Origin: Antedon mediterranea
Taxonomy: Eukaryota; Echinodermata; Crinoidea; Comatulida; Antedonidae
Direction of reading: 5' to 3'
Assembly (NCBI RefSeq): GCF_964355755.1
Contig: NC_092679.1
Location: 11,026,932-11,090,931 of the forward strand
Length of the DNA: 64,000 nucleotides
This document shows positions 5,376 through 15,710 of this stretch, piece by piece; the stretch's first letter is position 1, and every line of letters starts with the position of its first letter. The notes below the pieces were generated by a model. The model did not search any database and was not told the origin of the DNA. It saw only the letters and a list, made by a program, of their open reading frames with translations. Made by a program: the position numbers and the translations under genes.

Positions 5376-7625
5376 TTACTGGTACTGATTCCACTGCTGA
5401 CTGGGCCCAGGACCATACTGCATTTGTTGCTGCTGGCGGAATTGGTGATGGGCTCCTTGGTTTTGTGATTGTACTGTTTGGCTAAGTATCGCTAAAAATT
5501 GTTTCTGAAAATCCATATTTTGTTGTCGTTCTTCTCTCCTTTCGATCATTTGTTTTTCTATCAGTGAGACAACCTTATCCATCTTATTATCCATATTTTG
5601 CTGTACACGCTTCAATTCAACTTCTTGTCTTTCGTCAATAGTCCTCCACCTTTTAAAATTGTACTCTTGTAGTTCCTTGAGGCTTTTGGTGACCGCGTCA
5701 ACTGTTCTGTCTTTCTTTGTTCTTGTTGATGTATCCTCATTTGCAGTTCCTATTTAAACAATTCAAAATGATAGATTTATATGAAAAAAAAAGTGTACCA
5801 CAGAATCATCATTATTTGCAAATTTAGAAAAATGCTTACTGTTAAGTCTGCGTCTTTTGATCTGTACCGGAGTCTCGTGTATTGCATCATCCTCCTCATC
5901 CAATGCAGGTTGTGGGTTATGTGCAGTAGCAATTGGCTGACTAACTGCAGATGTCGCTGTAAAAAAAAAGTATTAGTTGTTTTACTGGCACTAGCACTGA
6001 CAGTGCTAGTGCCAGTTTACAGTTGGGATCTGCAGGTATTCATAGTGAGAAAACATGTATTAGTTAAAGCTACACTTACTGGATTGTTCAGAGTGATTTG
6101 ACTCTGTATCGACTGGTGAATTGTCAGTAGACGATTCTCTTTGAGGGGGACTGTCTTCATACTCATTTTCCCATCCTAAAAAAAAAAATGTTTATAAGAG
6201 AGATTGATCCAATCAGTGTGAATTTAGTGGAGGGCTGTCGGGTTGATATTTTAAAAATTCTTAAATCTTACCATAAATCTTTCCCCTTTTCCGAGGCCTA
6301 GCAAACATAGAGTCCCTATAACCTGAAATGCCATCATCAGAATCATCTCGCCATAGACATTCTGTACGGAATAAAACAATGTAAAAAAAAATTAAAATAT
6401 TTGAATAGTTAACTTTGTCAGAGTTAGGGCCAAGACATGAATGATCAATTTTAATTATACAGCCAAGTTACCTTCAGCATAATCGTCCACACACTGCTTG
6501 CATGTAACCGCTGCTCCAAAGCCTTCTTCATGCTGTTCACCAGCACATGGTGGGATACCATGTGTGGGTTTTCCACACACTTTACATGTATGACTACCAC
6601 ACTCTTTACCACATACCCCACACAATGGAAAACCTGAGTGAAGAAAAAAAACATTAATGTGTGTAATTAGTTGTAGCTTATTTGGTTTACAGATTGAAAA
6701 GCATTCTGTAGTATTGGAGCTAAAACTGAACAAAGCGAGCGAACTTTAGTTTTTGCTGCAATATCATCATTTATTAATATTAAGTAGTACAAGATCTTTT
6801 GATTAAGTTCCAAGGGTCAACATAAATAACTGCTAGGCTTAGGCCCTGGTACTTTAAATTCAAGATGCCGTTTTTGTGTTGTCCATCATTTCAAGTAGTA
6901 TGTTTAGGCCTATTACAACAAAAGGTTGGAATACCTGCTGGCCAGGCTTAGGCTGAAGTGAATGTAAAAATACTAGCCTAGGCCTTCTTTGATAGGCGAC
7001 AGACGTTATTTAGGCCTAGTTAGGCCCTCTTTATTTATATAGCTAGGCCTTTTGCCTACTAGACAACATTTAGATTTTTAGAATAGCTTACCTTCTGGTC
7101 TTGTTGCCTGGGTTGTCATTTGCCTTGGATTGATAGGTACCACTTTCTTGACATTCTCGATATGTTTAGCAATAGAAGTAGTAGACCTACTAGGGTTAGT
7201 TGGAATGTTAACAAGCCTAGGCCGTCCTACTAGGCATTCGATTGTCCTAGCAATCCGGCGGGTGGGTTTACACTTGGTTTTCCGCCAAGTATCTCGTTTA
7301 AGGCATGGTAGTGCGGACTTGATGACTTTGGATCATCACGTTTGATGTTCGTTGTACCTTTGCCTGTACCTCGAATAACTATATCTCTAACAGCCTTGTG
7401 TTCTGCTCTCAAATTTTTGAATTTCGTGATGACTACACCCGCCGTTATCCCGGTGTGTCCTAGATCTCTCATTCGTTGAGCTATCTGTTCGTGAAGCTTA
7501 GCCTTCTGTCTGAATAGCTTATCCTCCACTTTTTCGGCAATTTCAGGTTCTTTCCAAATATCTATCAAGTCTCTCTCTTGATCAAAAGTCCAGAGGTGTC
7601 TCTTCTGTTTGGGCTTTTCCGACAT
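5376..7625 (-). CDS. Myb/SANT-like DNA-binding protein with Cys-rich zinc motif, seven exons
   Basis: Exons read 7625-7274, 7142-7092, 6633-6472, 6361-6272, 6175-6080, 5956-5840 and 5749-5376. Every junction I placed keeps phase, giving about 413 aa with no stop. Exon 1 starts MSEKPKQKRHLWTFDQE, whose Trp and following helices fit a Myb/SANT-like trihelix domain (residues about 10-90). Exon 3 has paired CxxC and CxxH motifs (CGVCGKECGSHTCKVC, KPTHGIPPC, TCKQC) like a zinc ribbon. The middle is acidic and Ser-rich, with basic patches RPRKRGK and IKRRRLN that may be nuclear localisation signals. The end is a charged coiled coil, then a Gln-rich tail. Harbinger elements commonly encode a Myb-like partner that helps transposase binding and nuclear import. 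Its place beside the convergent transposase suggests that role, but a host gene is possible. The 51-nt exon 2 is the least certain. Confidence 0.8.
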
Positions 7626-7849
7626 TACGATCAAATGTTAAATATAAAATACTAAAATAGATTAAATAAGACGTACGAGCACGAGTGGTGGATCAAATGA
7701 AATGCAAGCGTCGGCGTGAGAGAGAAAAAAAACCCCGCGAAAAACGGTCAAAGGTTAAAAATTCCTTCAATCCTATTGGTCGGTTGCTGACGGCTGGACT
7801 TCCTGCTGCGTTGTTTATTTACTCAAGCCTCGTAAAATAACTCGCTATC
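7626..7849. promoter_or_regulatory. Probable 5' flank of the Myb-like gene
   Basis: Immediately upstream (on the - strand) of the Myb-like start is a mixed-composition stretch with an inverted CCAAT box (ATTGG at 7776-7780). No TATA box is clear. I infer promoter function from position only. Confidence 0.25.
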
Positions 7850-7995
7850 CTTGGATTTACTAGTAAATCCAAGCGACGGAAATCGTCGAGATAAAACCTT
7901 CTTCTCGACGTAATTGAGCGTTCACATCCAAACTTATGGCGACATCGTCTGGATTATCTATTTAAATTATCTCGCCATAGTTCGATGTGAACGCC
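7850..7995. repeat. Cluster of palindromes, MITE-like or transposon terminus
   Basis: CTTGGATTTACTAGTAAATCCAAG at 7850-7873 is a perfect 24-bp palindrome. Next comes CGACGGAAATCGTCG, a small hairpin. Then GCGTTCACATC near 7918 pairs with GATGTGAACGC near 7983, and the arms extend inward (TTATGGCGA with TCGCCATAG). GCGTTCACATC-type ends are plausible Harbinger-like inverted termini, but I found no matching copy upstream of the transposase. It may therefore be an independent 80-150 bp foldback element. Confidence 0.6.
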
Positions 7996-8116
7996 ACTAA
8001 TGTAATCATAGAGCTATACATTTTATATCTCCATGCTGTAGTTATGCATAACAAAATATCATTTCAATCATTTAGGAATTACACACTATTGCTTTTGTTG
8101 ATTTGATTTATGACAG

Positions 8117-9105
8117 GAATGTTGCGAAAAGCTGCAGAAATGAGAGAGGACGAAAGTATTTTAAAAGACATTCGAGGCAAAAGCTGTTCTTGTATTGAAG
8201 TGCGATATCATGACCAATGTTACAAAAACTACACCAAAATAGTTGTTAATTCACGTAAACGACATGATTCTGGAAAGTGAGTAAAACGTAACTTTCTAAA
8301 ACTCTGTTGGTTTTTGTAATTTACATTTTTAATTTTTTTTTATTTGCTTCAGTCTACTCTAAATGTTCAATTTTTAAACACCAAAATCTATAAAATATTA
8401 AAATATATTTTAATAATATTTATTATTATTTACAGGGAATTGGAAAGTGTTTTTTTAATATTATAAGCAAAGCTATAAGGTATTTTGCAGAGATGTAATT
8501 GATAAACGGTTACAGTATGGACAGGAGATACTAAGACTGGCAAAACTCCAAAAGCTTTTCATCAAATCAATTGAAAAAACAGAAAATGTTAACTTGTCAA
8601 CTATAAGGTAGGCTGTCGACCACTTCTTAAAAATGATTGTAATATTTTTTAGATCCAGTTACTGTCATAATAATTTCTTCATTGTATCTGTGTTACAATT
8701 AATTATAATCAATTAATGCGTTATTTATAGATCAGACGTGTTGAAGAAGAAGCTCAGGATGGATTATCCTAAACCTAATTTTTCATTCACCCACAAGAAG
8801 GTTAGTTGCTTAGTGTGTTTATATTAAATGATTATTTCACCAGGGATAATTAAAAAAAAAAAATCTTTTTGTGATTGGTCAAACTAAATATTTTATTTAT
8901 TTTTTCTTAATTAGAAATGAATCAGTTCTGGTGTACTTTAGCAATGTATCCCCTGGATTTGTGGCTGATCCATTTTTGTCATCAGGAAAAAGTACAACAG
9001 ATGAATCATCAGAGTATGACATAGATATTCCAACTGCTTCTACAACACACAAAATCTCCACTGATGGTGACAATGGAGACAAACTAAGGACTCTATATTT
9101 TGCAG
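8117..9105 (+). pseudogene. N-terminal exons of the large FEN1/XPG-like family copy
   Basis: Four exons fit splice consensus: 8117-8276 (with SCSCIEVRYHDQCYKNYTK), 8491-8607 (helical, QYGQEILRLAKLQKLF), 8731-8800 (VLKKKLRMDYPKPNFSF) and 8915-9105 (NESVLVYFSNVSPGF, ending TLYFAG). Exons 1 to 2 and 2 to 3 join in phase. Exon 3 to exon 4 is off by one nucleotide, a probable lesion. Exon 4 joins the long exon at 9969 in phase 1 across an intron holding a MITE. I recall this order (a CYxxYT segment, a helical segment, then LFYxxxxD-type text) from long unannotated proteins repeated in cnidarian, fish and echinoderm genomes. Function is unknown. The N-terminus may start further upstream. Confidence 0.6.
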
Positions 9106-9170
9106 GTACGGTTAAAATACAATAACTTGTGTATATTGGTTTATTTTTAAATAACAACAATAAATGTTAA

Positions 9171-9775
9171 AGACCCCTTCCCTGCAATTTTGGACGTTTT
9201 TTGGAAAATAATACATAATCACTTTAAAAACATTAAACCATGTCATTCCTTGTCTTAAATGTACGTTTTATGGTAAATTATGATAAAAAGTGAGAAACAA
9301 TGCACTACCTAAGTAGCTCGCGGCGATCGACGGTCTTAGGCCTAGCCTAGCTAGGCTTAGTTTTGTAAGCCTAGCTGGTAAACATCGATAACGTACGAAC
9401 ATCGTACGCTAGCTATATACCTAGCCTGACGTTGTGTAGTTGCTGCATTAATTGTCTTTCTATTTTGCCAGACTCCGTTGATACAAATTGGGGAAAACCC
9501 GGTATTTTCGCTGAAAAGTTAGGAGTCTTCCATTTGTTTTGGCTTCACGATCGATCGAAAAGTGGGCGAATTACAGGTGAAAAACAAAAATATCAATCCG
9601 CGCGCAATGCATTTTGGGATTTATAGCGGGCCGTTATTAGAATCGATTTATTTTTCACATTTTTAACCGTTTAAAGATGAAAAAAGTTATCGCAATAGGA
9701 CCATATAGTATTATTTTTACATTAAATATAGTTTGTGATCTTAAATTAGATCTAAAAAACGTAGGGAATGGGGCT
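9171..9775. mobile_element. 605-bp MITE with TTAA target duplication
   Basis: The left end AGACCCCTTCCCTGC and the inverted right end (reverse complement AGCCCCATTCCCTAC) form imperfect terminal repeats. Both sides are flanked by TTAA (9167-9170 and 9776-9779). The TTAA duplication is typical of piggyBac and Kolobok superfamilies. No transposase is encoded. It sits inside the intron between 9105 and 9969 of the large family copy and contains the local AGGCCTAG-type motif near 9338-9352. Confidence 0.8.
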
Positions 9776-9968
9776 TTAAATTGCATAATTAAGGAAATGC
9801 TGTGGATCAAAGAGGTGAAAGCTGTATACACTCAAAAAACAAAACTGTTATGATAGTAAGTGATGTAAAGTGGTGTCGATCATAAATGCTGTACACAATA
9901 CAGTATATATGCTTTAAATTTATTATTACTATGTTTCATTCACCCAATGCTATAAAATGTACTTTCAG

Positions 9969-12521
9969 GTACGATAGTAAATAATGCCATCAAATCCAAC
10001 AAAGGTATGCAGAGTGAATGGCCTCCAAGAGCAGCGGACATTAATGATGTTGACATATCTGAAATTGTGCCATATGAGTTGTTTAATCTAATTGCAAAGT
10101 GTGTTGGTGCTGCAGAAGATACTACTGAAGAAACTCGAATGAAAATGTTATCGATATGCCACGACATCCTGTACCTTGCTTGGAAAGGAAGAAGGCAGAC
10201 TTCGAAGTCACTTGCTCTAGGATTAACTGTTCGACATTTGACGGGGTCATCACATCTTCTTAATATATTAAGTAAGTTTGGACATTGTCCTTCACTGGAC
10301 AAAGTGGTTTCATATGAAACTAGTTTGGCATTATACAGAATGGCAACCATGTATAATGTCCCTGATGGTTTTACTCCTGGCAAGTTGATTATTTTAGTCT
10401 GGGATTTTAATGAAGAAACTATGAGTGGTAAAGTAACAACTCATCACACTAATGGCATTATGCTACAGAAGATGGGTGATCAGAAATCAAAAAGAGTACT
10501 TGACAAACCTGTAGTAAAGAAAGGTATTTGTTCACTACCTTACGTTGAAGTCCAGTTGAATGAGTATCACCGTGTACAACGTGTAGGTCCAGGATGTCAA
10601 GTTGATACCAGTTCAACCAGTGAACATCTTCAGCTAATGATACAGCAAAATTAAAAGATTTTTCTTTTGTGATTGCAAGATTGTACTGCCAATCTGAAGT
10701 TCCAGGGGGTGGACTGGTTTTAACATCTCAACAAGCAACTACTCTATTCAGAAAACAGCAATCCATTACCTACCAGCAATAGAATCTTCACCTACAGATC
10801 TAACAACTGTAAACACAATAATATACCAAAGTCTCGACATTGCATTACAGAAGCTTGTGTTGGTTTTTGACCAAGCCATATATGCTAAGATCCAAGAAAT
10901 TAGGTGGTCGAACGACCAATTGAAACAAAGAATAGTGGTTCGTCTTGGCATGTTCCATACCTGTACAAGTTTCATAGCAATTATTGGGAAACGGTTTGCT
11001 GATGCAGGATTGAGGGGACATCATGATTGAGTCTGGTCTTGTTGCAGGGGGTTCTATGAATGGTTTAATCTCTGGAAAGCATTATAACCGGTCAATTCAT
11101 GCATATAAAGTAATGTATGAGGCATTTGAACAATTACGATTTGCTGAATTTCTAGAATCACTAGCAGAAGCAGATGTAAACATGATGAAGGAAAAGGTGA
11201 CAAATGCAGTTTGGAAAAGAATGGAACCATCAATGGTTGAAGAGATATATCTTCAATATGCAGAATTTGTACGTAATAGTAAAGATCCCACTTTCCAATA
11301 TTGGAGCTCCTTCTTGGAAATGATTTCATTATTAATGACGCTGATTCGTGCAACACGACAATCGGATTGGGAACTGCACCTGGCCATCATAAGATTGATG
11401 ATCCCATGGTATTTCGCATATGATCGGACAAATTATTCACGGTACTTACCAGCATATTGGGCAGAAATGATGGAGTTGCCAACTACGCACCCAGAGGTTT
11501 ACGACGATCTAAGTAAACGATGCTCATGGACCGTCCAGAGGCAGGACAGACACGCGTTTGCATCTATTGCTTGTGATCAAACGATAGAAGAAACCCTAAA
11601 CCGGGACTGCAAAATTGAAGGTGGCATCCATCGTTTCACACTTAACCGGTCAGCTGTTAAGAGATGGATACTTGCACAGCCAGAAAGAGCAGAGATTGCA
11701 CGATCGTGTGAAAACATGTGTAACTTGCACAAAGAACCAAGAAGCCCAAAAGAGCTAGACATTTCACGCACTAAGAAGGTAACCAAACTTGTTGAAGCAG
11801 TTGTAGCAACAACCTGTAGCATGATTAATCCTTTTTCATCAACATCAGATGAATTAGAAAACATCAGTTCTGGCTCTGTGGCTACAGAGCTGGTACAAAA
11901 AGACATCAGTAAAGCCTATGAAGTAGAAGAAAAACAAGCATCTGAGTATTTGAAATCAAAGATGGGCTCGGATTCCGGAATGTATAGCACCATAAAGCAT
12001 AATCGACTTAGGACATTAAAAAATAACTTTGAAAAAAAGGTCAAGGCTGGTTCAATGACCACTGACAATAAATCGCTGTATTCCCGCTTGCTTGTCGTTG
12101 GGCAAAGTAGAGAGGTAGATTTGAAAGAAGTCCTGACATACTGCTTAGGCAATATTCCTTTTTCTTAATGAAACTTCTTGAAGAAAAAGCCAATGATGTA
12201 CCGGACTTGTATGTCTCAAAGATTCCTGTTAAAGGGACACTTCTCATTGACGGAATGGCACTTCTACAAACACTAAACAATATACCTGAGACTTTCCAGC
12301 AATTGGCAAATGATGTGTTGAGAAAACTGATAGCGCTTGCCTCTTTCCACAAATGTAACAGGATTGACTTTGTTTGCGACACCTATCCAGAAGTAAGTGT
12401 AAAAAACCTTGAACGTTCTCGGAGAGCTGGCAAAGGAACCGAAATCATCAAAATTTATGGTAAAGATCAGAAAACACCAAGTCAATTCAAAAAGTACCTG
12501 GCAAGCAGGGCTGAAAATTAA
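9969..12521 (+). pseudogene. Main exon of the large family copy; ends in a PIN/FEN1-like nuclease N-terminal half
   Basis: Long open blocks in changing frames read as one protein. The blocks are MQSEWPPRAADIND..., a segment with FGHC and THHTNGI, VVRLGMFHTCTSFIAIIGK, FAYDRTNYSRYLPAYW, and WTVQRQDRHAFASIACDQ. The final block (12168-12521) has LLIDGMALLQ, then helices, then IDFVCDTYPEVSVKNLERSR and a basic stretch. A buried strand with an early Asp and a later D/E plus K-x-x-E-R-x-R fits FEN1/XPG-like nuclease folds (inference). Frame breaks lie near 10600-10640, 10705 (a G run), 11017 (an extra G in GAGGGGACATC) and 12165. This copy cannot make the full protein. Domestication elsewhere in the genome is possible. 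Confidence 0.7.
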
Positions 12522-13504
12522 CGGTTGCCCGGTCGCCAATGGCGACCTTTATTTGGTAAGGGCGAGTATTAATTTTGTGATGGTCGACCCGTCTGGCGAC
12601 TTCCAGAAACTGCATCCACCTACCTTTTATAACCAATCTAGGCCTAGGCTAATAATATATAAGCTAAGTTATAAAGCTTATACAAGCCTAATGGCAGTCC
12701 CTCGCAGTGGTGGCGCCACCGGGGGGGGGGGGGGGGGGATTGGGGGGGGGGATTGGGGGGGGGGGGGGGCTACGGGGGCTCTAGCCCCCTCGTCGGGGAG
12801 CCTAGCCCCCCCGTCGGGGAACACGGGTACTTTTTGTCGGGGAATATAATATACAGTAAAAAACGTTCGCGTTCACTTCATACAGCTTCAGCGCCTAGAA
12901 AACCACGACGTTCCATTGACCGTGAGAGTACGTCAGAGGGCTATTATGCACTTTTATGCATTCATTATTGCCAGCGATCTAACTTACTACTAAACATTAG
13001 CTAGGTACGCACTTGTCTGGCGGTATCCCTTTGTACGAATCGTTCGACGTTGGGTTGAGACGCGTGATATCAAGTTCCATCCAGGGACCAAAATGTGTAA
13101 TGTAGTTATTTTCCAGGCGAAGTTTATCGACGGTTACCGAAGGGAACACGGGTACTTTTTGTCGGGGAATATAATATACAGTAAAAAGCGTTCGCGTTCA
13201 CTTCGTAGCTAGCTTCAGCGCCTAGAAAACCGCGACGTTTCATTGACCGTGAGAGTATGTCAGAGTGATATTATGCACTTTATATGCATTCATTATTGCC
13301 AGCGATCTAACTTACTACTAAACAATAGCTAGGTACGCACTTGTCTGGCGGTATCCCTTTGTACGAATCGTTCAACGTTGAGTTGGCGAAGTTTACTGAC
13401 GGTTACGTCGTGTACTGTGTCGACGTACGCTACACTACAGCAAAAACGAATTAAGTTAGTTGTTCGTATGTTCACCAATTTTTTAATTTACAAGTAACCT
13501 TCAT
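12522..13504. repeat. Repeat-filled interruption with G-runs and 325-bp tandem duplication
   Basis: The nuclease coding text stops at 12521 and resumes near 13505, with a middle piece of the domain missing. Inside are a G-rich tract (12721-12770, runs of 10-18 G with GATT spacers, strong G-quadruplex potential), a CCCC/GGGG snap-back at 12775-12819, and two copies of a 325-bp unit. GGGAACACGGGTACTTTTTG starts at 12817 and 13142, and both copies continue through CTTGTCTGGCGGTATCCCTT. No gene is visible. Confidence 0.75.
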
Positions 13505-14184
13505 TAGGTCCTGAGGTATGCAGATGTCTTATCAGTTTACATGTTTTTACTGGGTGTGACTCCACCAGTGCCTTTTATGGAAAGGGAAAGAAAAAGGCAT
13601 TTGAATTAGCAATCACTGATGAGAAATATTTGAAGGCATTTGCGGAACTTGGAGATGAATATAGTGTACCTGATAATGTATTGCCAGTACTAGAAGAATT
13701 TGTTTGTCAATTATATGGCCAGAAGTGTGACCAAGTAAATGTTGCACGATACAAAGCATTTTGTTCAACTATTTCCGAGAAAAGTCTGCCCCCATGCAAC
13801 ATGTTAAAAGAGTAGCATTTCAATCAGCTGTAAACAAAAAAGCTTTAGTTTCTATAACACATACTCCATCTCCTAACAACTATGGTTGGACAGTTGAGGA
13901 CAAGAAAATTTATGCCAAATGGATGACGCAGTCTCCTGCCCCAAAGAGTCTAATGGAAGTTATCAGATGTGGCTGCAAGGTGGGGAAATGTAAACAAAGG
14001 AGGTGTATGTTCATGTAATAAAAACAAGTTGCGGTGTTCTGATCTGTGCAAGTGCAGTGAGTGTGAAAACAGGACAAGAGAAGAAGAAGAAGAAAAAGAA
14101 GAAGACACACCAGACTATGGCATTGAAGATGATGAATTAGACTATGATGAATTAGACTATGAGGAAGATGAATATGAAATATAG
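13505..14184 (+). pseudogene. C-terminal part of the large family copy: GCD/G-x-G-K nuclease motif and Cys-rich tail
   Basis: Reading 13510-13812 gives HVFTGCDSTSAFYGKGKKK, then helical text up to a stop after MLKE. GCDxT...GxGKK strongly recalls the FEN1/XPG segment where a catalytic Asp is followed by a helix-hairpin-helix (GxGxxKA). A shift continues as VAFQSAVNKKALV...NNYGWT...APKSLMEVIRCGCKVGKC. Another shift near 14000 gives GGVCSCNKNKLRCSDLCKC. The Cys array (CxC...C...CxC...C..C..CxxC) looks metal-binding. The end is acidic, with repeated ELDYDELDYEEDE. The Cys tail following the nuclease core is a constant of this unnamed family as I recall it. At least two frameshifts occur here. 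Confidence 0.65.
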
Positions 14185-14344
14185 TTTATACGGTTTTGAA
14201 TGCAACAAAATCATCATAAAAAGTAACTGTAATGTAATAGGCCTACACTATAACCAATGTGAAACACTAACCATGGTTATGCAAACAGAAACTGTGATCA
14301 TGTGAATAAAGAAAAAGATAAAAAAAAAATGAAAACAAAATGGA

Positions 14345-14960
14345 AACCATGAGAATATAAATAAATAATATAACCATGAGAATATAAATAAATAATGTAA
14401 CCATGAGAATATAATAAAAACTGTAACCATGAGAATATAATAATAAAAACTGTAACCATGAGAATATAATAAAAACTGTAACCATGAGAATATAATAAAA
14501 ACTGTAACCATGCATAATATAATAAAAACTGTAACTATGTAACCATGAGAATATAATAAAAACTGTAACCATGAGAATATAATAATAAAAACTGTAACCA
14601 TGAGAATATAATAAAAACTGTAACCATGCATAATATAATAAAAACTGTAACTATGTAACCATGAGAATATAATAAAAACTGTAACCATGAGAATATAATA
14701 AAAACTGTAACCATGAGAATATAATAAAAACTGTAACCATGAGAATATAATAAAAACTGTAACCATGCATAATATAATAAAAACTGTAACTATGTAACCA
14801 TGAGAATATAATAAAAACTGTAACCATGAGAATATAATAAAAACTGTAACCATGAGAATATAAAGAAAAATAGTAACTATGAGAATATAAAGACATTGTG
14901 TAACCATTAAAAGAAGTTGTGTAACCATGAGAATATAAAGAAAAATATTAACCATGAGAA
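14345..14960. repeat. 26-bp minisatellite
   Basis: About twenty tandem units of CCATGAGAATATAATAAAAACTGTAA fill this stretch. A variant unit, CCATGCATAATATAATAAAAACTGTAACTATGTAA, recurs at intervals (near 14505, 14617, 14762), so the array has a higher-order pattern of several normal units plus one variant. Units at both ends are degenerate. The long - strand frame across it is an artefact of the repeat. Confidence 0.97.
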
Positions 14961-14984
14961 TAAATACAATTACATAGAAACAAA

Positions 14985-15710
14985 ACAAATATTTTATGTT
15001 TGTATTTTATTTAATAATTTAAATTTACTATTGCATTGGTGTTTATTACTAGGAATATGTGTTCTATATGTTTCACAGTTAAATCATATCACTGATCAGT
15101 CACTATGTACATCCTACGGTATAAACTTCGCATTGCTGCTGTATTTCTACTGCTATTAATAGCCTACCTGTCGGGAGAAACCATTATACGAACAGTTGAA
15201 GCCATTTGTAATTATTAAATGTTTTAATGTCGGGGGATAATTATTAACTCTAAATTTCCTTTTTAGAGTTATAAATTTGTATTCACCAAATTTATTTAAA
15301 AAAATAAAGAATAAATCTATTTTGATAATAAATAACTTGCCTATATATTTCTTATAAACCGTGATAATAATAGTACAGTCTAGTTATAGTGCGCCACCAG
15401 TTGTTTCAGCCTCGCTAATTCGTAAAAAATCGTTGGCATATTTACCAACTTTAACGGTAATTTTCTACCAAACGCCAGGTATTTTTTTGTGGAACTTTTA
15501 CTTTTTGTACTATTAGTATTTATTTAGAACAGTATATGTAGTAAAAAAGTATTATGCTTGATGAGGAACGGGATTGCTTTTCCAGGTATCATTTCAGCTT
15601 CGCCGTAAGGCCTATTAAAGTAATATATATGTTAGCTTGTGTAATATCTGAAGATAATTTTGTTAGTGATTTGCCTATAGGCCTTCTGTGAAACTGAACA
15701 TATTTTTCAG
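14985..15710. other. No gene seen
   Basis: AT-rich single-copy-looking sequence with short AGGCC motifs. No convincing frame, terminal repeat or RNA was seen. Confidence 0.4.

Follow-up and report, generated by a model that had tools for sequence, protein, structure and literature searches.

A probable dead AcademX-type DNA transposon with a FEN1/XPG-like nuclease domain in the genome of Antedon mediterranea

Introduction

What kind of gene has left the broken, nuclease-like reading frames seen at this locus of Antedon mediterranea? The first-pass annotation of the window (the whole stretch of 64,000 nucleotides that was analysed) had placed at 8117-14184 a frameshifted copy of a dispersed multicopy gene, ending in a FEN1/XPG-like nuclease and a Cys array, and had suggested that it may mark an undescribed mobile or defence element. 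The motifs that it listed, LLIDGMALLQ, K-x-x-E-R-x-R, GCDSTSAFYGKGKKK and the Cys array, are all present on the plus strand, in the open frames 12111-12521 (which holds both LLIDGMALLQ and the basic motif, as KNLERSR), 13498-13815 (which holds GCDSTSAFYGKGKKK) and 13954-14184. The element is longer than the proposed interval, running from 7998 to 15614 (Table 1). Our reading is that the window very probably contains an AcademX-type DNA transposon that is now dead.

Table 1. Features of the transposon copy and of the repeats in and beside it, in window positions.
Feature	Position	Strand	Evidence
Decayed AcademX-like DNA transposon copy	7998-15614	+	Edges common with deletion derivatives L054/L055
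Other dispersed repeat adjoining the truncated 5' edge	7740-8006		12 places, 77-84% (40 scored of 84 candidates)
N-terminal exon remnant, C..H..C..Y type	8116-8307	+	L009 residues 82-145, 36%, E 5e-7
N-terminal exon remnant	8462-8608	+	L009 residues 137-185, 39%, E 1e-6
Secondary insertion, 610 bases	9170-9779		Absent from the three relatives read (L054, L055, L056)
Putative transposase region, frame 2, candidate first catalytic Asp (VWD)	9959-10603	+	57% to L007 18-243
Putative transposase region, frame 3, candidate second Asp (FDQA)	10707-11015	+	68% to L007 281-387
Putative transposase region, frame 1, DUF6589-like, candidate Glu (DQTIEETLNRD)	11017-12162	+	56% to L007 388-776
Predicted nuclease, N-terminal part: first Asp LLIDG, second Asp FVCD, K..ER.R gateway motif	12132-12506	+	50% to L007 782-906, E 2e-32
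Other dispersed repeat inside the nuclease	12697-13500, mostly 12763-13500		DNA matches
Predicted nuclease, C-terminal part: last Asp (GCD), GKGKKK helix-hairpin-helix-like turn	13504-13812	+	Start of piece aligned to L007 1030-1244, E 3e-38
Cys-rich tail, then acidic tail	13954-14184	+	Open frame
26-base tandem array, element's 3' part	14345-14890		Related repeats in the derivatives
3' terminal inverted repeat TAGGCCTTACGGCGAA	15599-15614	-	Exact 16-mer genome match

Results and Discussion

Extent and condition of the window copy

The copy has lost its 5' end and is complete at its 3' end. Two relatives elsewhere in the genome, L054 and L055, match the window at 7998-9169, 9780-10234 and 14058-15614 with 89-95% identity, and nothing in the window corresponds to bases 1-1347 of the L054 copy, so that the part of the element that would precede 7998 is gone. 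At the other side the copy ends at 15614, because the terminal 16-mer TAGGCCTTACGGCGAA lies there; this sequence has 30 exact matches in the genome, the window's own included, and the reversed control pattern has none. Because the 5' end is lost, the target duplication of this particular copy is unreadable. The insertion at 9170-9779 has imperfect inverted ends, TTAAAGACCCCTTCCC and the inverse of TTAAAGCCCCATTCCC, and TTAA at both edges, features that we take to resemble those of piggyBac-type small elements.

The coding parts were mapped by tblastn, using the proteins of L007 (an open frame of 1247 aa) and L009 as queries. The L007 protein aligns collinearly to 9959-14130 of the plus strand, in five pieces, the last at 38% identity and the others as given in Table 1, and the E-values of the two nuclease pieces show that the match is not due to chance. 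Profile searches with the window's own pieces gave a Pfam DUF6589 match below cut-off in the transposase region (E 0.0043), a match of the Cys-rich tail to Pfam TCR (CXC), also below its cut-off (E 0.0022), and no Pfam match for the two nuclease pieces.

The claim that the copy is frameshifted holds, since the five pieces lie in frames 2, 3, 1, 3 and 1, the last of them also crossing stops, and the damage goes beyond it. Between the nuclease pieces lies a gap, 12522-13497, filled mostly (from 12763 on) by the other dispersed repeat, which has at least 81 matches including itself (from 1071 candidates, of which 40 were scored); apart from itself, these are 90-99% identical. Residues 907-1029 of L007, the middle of the nuclease with its E-x-D and D-x-D acids, have no counterpart in the window, and the window nuclease retains only three of the seven catalytic acids (D11, D56 and D240), the other four being lost. 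No working nuclease is to be expected from this copy, because its frames shift and residues 907-1029 are missing; judged by its reading frames, it is dead.

Just outside the element, a 135-aa open frame on the minus strand (7230-7637) encodes a Myb/SANT-like DNA-binding domain (PF13837, which it matches above the cut-off at E 1.1e-9). It has 22 matches in the genome including itself, many of them partial or stop-bearing; it may be a gene, or it may belong to another transposon as an accessory gene.

The window copy's own family

Sequence related to 7640-9110 occurs in at least 27 other places in the genome, at 89-95% identity (84 candidates, 40 of them scored); 14 of these matches start at 7998 or 8007 and 13 at 8267 or 8357. 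Three of the 27 places were read, namely L054, L055 and L056. In L054 and L055 the part corresponding to 10235-14057 is missing, and with it almost the whole of the transposase and nuclease; L056 has the same gap. A search with the coding core, 10240-12500, returned besides itself five matches of 68-70% over about 200 bases, with all six candidates scored. Because this core has no other close DNA match, the window holds the only copy found that carries its family's coding core, in a search that may miss copies.

Copies, termini and target duplications

When the genome (354 Mb, 18 contigs) was searched for copies, a 105-aa C-terminal piece of the nuclease gave at least 150 matches, the window included (150 scored of 318 candidates). 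Two of the copies, L007 and L008, lie on different chromosomes (C5 and C8) and share 99.97% identity across 7747 bp. The nuclease thus belongs to a dispersed, multicopy gene that has been mobile, as the first-pass annotation had supposed. Both L007 and L008 end in TAGGCCATCGGGTGAA, in inverted orientation, and this 16-mer occurs at 25 exact places in the genome, compared with none for the reversed control (102 against 31 when two mismatches were allowed). The terminal inverted repeats begin with TAG. Some of the copies have kept very long open frames.

Ends of the L007/L008 type are flanked by exact 3-bp duplications (TGA, ATT, ATA, CCA and ACA) at five of six pairs, the pair at 24.58 Mb of C3 having no exact duplication. 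L054 and L055, which start with TAGGCCTTACGGTGAA and end with the inverse of TAGGCCTTACGGCGAA, are flanked by TGT and TAT, respectively (two of two). Altogether the flanking duplications for which a check had been proposed are exact, at 3-4 bp, in nine of the 11 copies with both ends read, and are absent from two.

Other arrangements of the same gene were also seen. L012:2200-6045, on C3, is a foldback derivative in which the C-terminal part of the nuclease occurs twice, in divergent inverted orientation, its two versions being 97% alike across 1.68 kb; the derivative has the ends TAGACTAGG and a 4-bp duplication, ATGT (one of one). Among the matches listed, 22 minus/plus pairs of nuclease matches, counted by eye, are separated by 0.4-3 kb, in most cases by about 1.7 kb; L012 is the one that was read. 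A third family (L010/L052 and L011/L053) has frames of 1555 aa, the termini TAGTCTGGGAGCCC and, at both ends, inverted arrays of tandem repeats of about 289 bases, with an exact 3-bp duplication at L011 and none at L010 (one of two). By inspection of the frames, the Cys-rich tail is present in L007, L009, L014, L016, L019, L020 and L022 and absent from L005, L010, L013 and L018, which have an acidic tail at their ends.

The nuclease domain

The seven metal-binding acids of FEN1, in their order, are characteristic of that enzyme. In order to compare them with the transposon-borne domain, we aligned 11 paralogues from the same genome that have an open nuclease frame and are 23-44% identical to L007, and set them against a FEN1 reference of 12 rows, drawn from loci in two archaeal assemblies and in genomes that belong to the same phylum as one of the two. 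The two archaeal FEN1 loci came from a second scan of genome contigs; a first scan, with an XPG exon as query, had given 59 pattern matches and none that was confirmed. In the search for viral relatives, viral contigs gave 45 pattern matches and none confirmed, and phage records no match.

Ten charged columns are invariant in all 11 paralogues (D11, D56, K64, R71, K102, D159, D182, D184, D240 and K250) and E157 is nearly so (at least 90% of the 11). In an unforced profile alignment, seven of the ten fall on identical invariant columns of FEN1, compared with at most three in 60 shuffles; D11, D56, K64, R71, D182, D184 and D240 align to FEN1 D37, D90, K97, R104, D183, D185 and D246, respectively. 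The remaining three stand opposite E (D159), a gap (K102) and P (K250), and in the extended HHalign alignment E157 and D159 align to FEN1 E162 and E164. All seven FEN1-type acids are conserved in order in the paralogues, six being invariant in 11 of 11 and the seventh being E157. The condition under which the annotation would have abandoned its proposal, a lack of conserved acids among paralogues, is not what we find. The gateway residues K64 and R71, which follow the second acid and lie on FEN1 K97 and R104, are likewise invariant, and in the turn after the last acid the near-invariant G249 lies on FEN1 G255, a turn that at the level of sequence aligns with that of Exonuclease 1 too.

Taken by themselves, the profile E-values are weak, at about 0.01. 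HHalign scored the full nuclease alignment at 30.8, whereas 40 column shuffles reached 25.2 at most and the reversed alignment 13.3. For the nuclease core the score was 28.0; here 100 shuffles peaked at 19.7, and the transposase region, used as a control, gave 17.9. The program's own probabilities were low (9.9% for the full alignment and 6.7% for the core) and its global mode produced a nonsense alignment. Searched against solved structures, the profile found Exonuclease 1 best (E 0.008, and 0.012 in a second search), but 40S ribosomal protein S3 scored nearly as well (E 0.044, and 0.015 in the second search, where it fell between Exonuclease 1 rows), and L007 searched as a single protein returned sortase matches alone, at E 0.75 or worse. 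The Pfam XPG models matched none of the 11 members at E <= 1; NCBIfam flap endonuclease Xni, the best of the four families listed, matched one of the 11 (E 7.9e-4). Single-sequence models of two partial window pieces had mean pLDDT values of 50.3 and 47.5, and Foldseek with the first of these low-confidence models gave no match at E <= 0.001, the best being RNase H2 at E 0.41. From the aligned residues we conclude that the domain is a distant FEN1/XPG-like 5'-nuclease, in agreement with the earlier claim, with a putative PIN-like fold and a putative nuclease activity.

The putative transposase

Upstream of the nuclease, eight paralogues were aligned, some rows beginning further downstream than others, and three conserved blocks were seen: D-N-x-D, present in the four rows long enough to include it; a second Asp (that of FDQA, for example), present in the six rows that extend to it; and D-x-x-x-E-x-x-x-N, which does not vary among the eight. 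These blocks may represent a DDE triad, in which the Asp of VWD, the Asp of FDQA and the Glu of DQTIEETLNRD in the window copy would have the catalytic roles. Residues 290-582 of L007 match Pfam DUF6589 above the curated cut-off (28.3 compared with 27 bits); among the seven frames scanned, this is the one above cut-off, three match below it and three have no match. No helicase match was found in the same seven frames, and the transposase profile had no match among solved structures at E <= 1. The literature searched yielded nothing on the topic for DUF6589 (PF20231).

Alternative explanations

The FEN1 motifs might resemble the real ones by chance, in a domain of another fold, and the weak profile E-values and low-confidence models would accord with this. 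We nevertheless regard it as highly improbable, because the whole catalytic set is collinear with that of FEN1, beyond what shuffles give, and because the best of the four NCBIfam families listed, matched by one of the 11 members, is itself a flap endonuclease, Xni. That the gene belongs to a host family of PIN nucleases acting in defence or repair, duplicated merely by neighbouring transposons, is scarcely credible, for all that very long open frames persist in some copies: the units that hold the gene in the families read are bounded by inverted repeats, flanked by target duplications and nearly identical at unlinked places; the deletion derivatives have the same ends; and four separate XPG_I exons occur elsewhere in the genome, which we take to be the host repair genes. 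We rejected the reading as a defence element because terminal repeats enclose the gene in the families that were read; the element is built like a transposon, the copy in the window is dead, and no link to defence was seen.

A more closely related alternative is a superfamily separate from Academ, which acquired a FEN1-like nuclease independently and shares the 3-4 bp duplication by chance. The sole family match above cut-off, in one of the seven frames, is to DUF6589, a family of unknown function, and this would suit such an origin. The nuclease of AcademX is an XPG nuclease; the portions of the literature covered by our search contained no text naming it as such, which again would leave room for a separate superfamily. 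A nuclease together with duplications of 3-4 bp are, on the other hand, the very traits stated for AcademX in the published passage (PMC10045372), and we consider a separate superfamily improbable. The suggestion of an undescribed kind of element is not supported either, since AcademX transposons with a nuclease and 3-4 bp duplications had already been published. An AcademX-type transposon remains our preferred reading.

Proposed mechanism and significance

In the better-kept relatives, one long frame encodes a putative DDE-type transposase followed by the FEN1/XPG-like 5'-nuclease and, in some lineages, the Cys-rich tail. The transposase would cut the element out and insert it into new DNA with a stagger of 3-4 bp. 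The nuclease might act at the new site, where it would trim 5' flaps or nicks left on the non-transferred strand; alternatively, it might open the ends of the element at excision. Host FEN1 trims 5' flaps or nicks for some other integrating DNA. It is conceivable, if rather unlikely, that by bringing its own flap nuclease the element achieves strand repair at the insertion site without the host, and that the short 3-4 bp duplication, by which the element differs from the helicase-bearing lineage, is set by the nuclease and not by the transposase acting alone.

The analysis supplies a residue-level case, namely a multicopy transposon group with a complete FEN1-type catalytic set, kept although the paralogues share only 23-43% identity with the first, and missed by Pfam XPG, and it could account for uncharacterised similar proteins in other genomes. 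A role of a nuclease in cut-and-paste transposition becomes testable.

Comparison with known systems

DUF6589, the function-unknown family, covers the presumed transposase part and not the nuclease. With FEN1, EXO1 and XPG the domain shares the charged catalytic set, the gateway K and R, and a last Asp followed by a turn of the G-x-G-K type; it differs from them in its identity of only 13% (extended HHalign alignment), in going unrecognised by Pfam XPG and in being fused behind a presumed transposase. Among transposons, AcademH, which shares its superfamily with AcademX by name, has a helicase and duplications of 9 or 10 bp, whereas AcademX encodes a nuclease and makes duplications of 3 or 4 bp, as given in the published passage (PMC10045372). 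The elements described here are unlike AcademH in their short duplications and in having no helicase match in the seven frames. They are like AcademX, of the Academ superfamily, in having a nuclease beside a presumed transposase, 3-4 bp duplications and terminal inverted repeats, a comparison that covers the nuclease, the duplication length and the termini, and for which the published passage speaks of a 'nuclease'. We file the group as AcademX-like because its nuclease and its 3-4 bp duplications fit the AcademX description in that passage.
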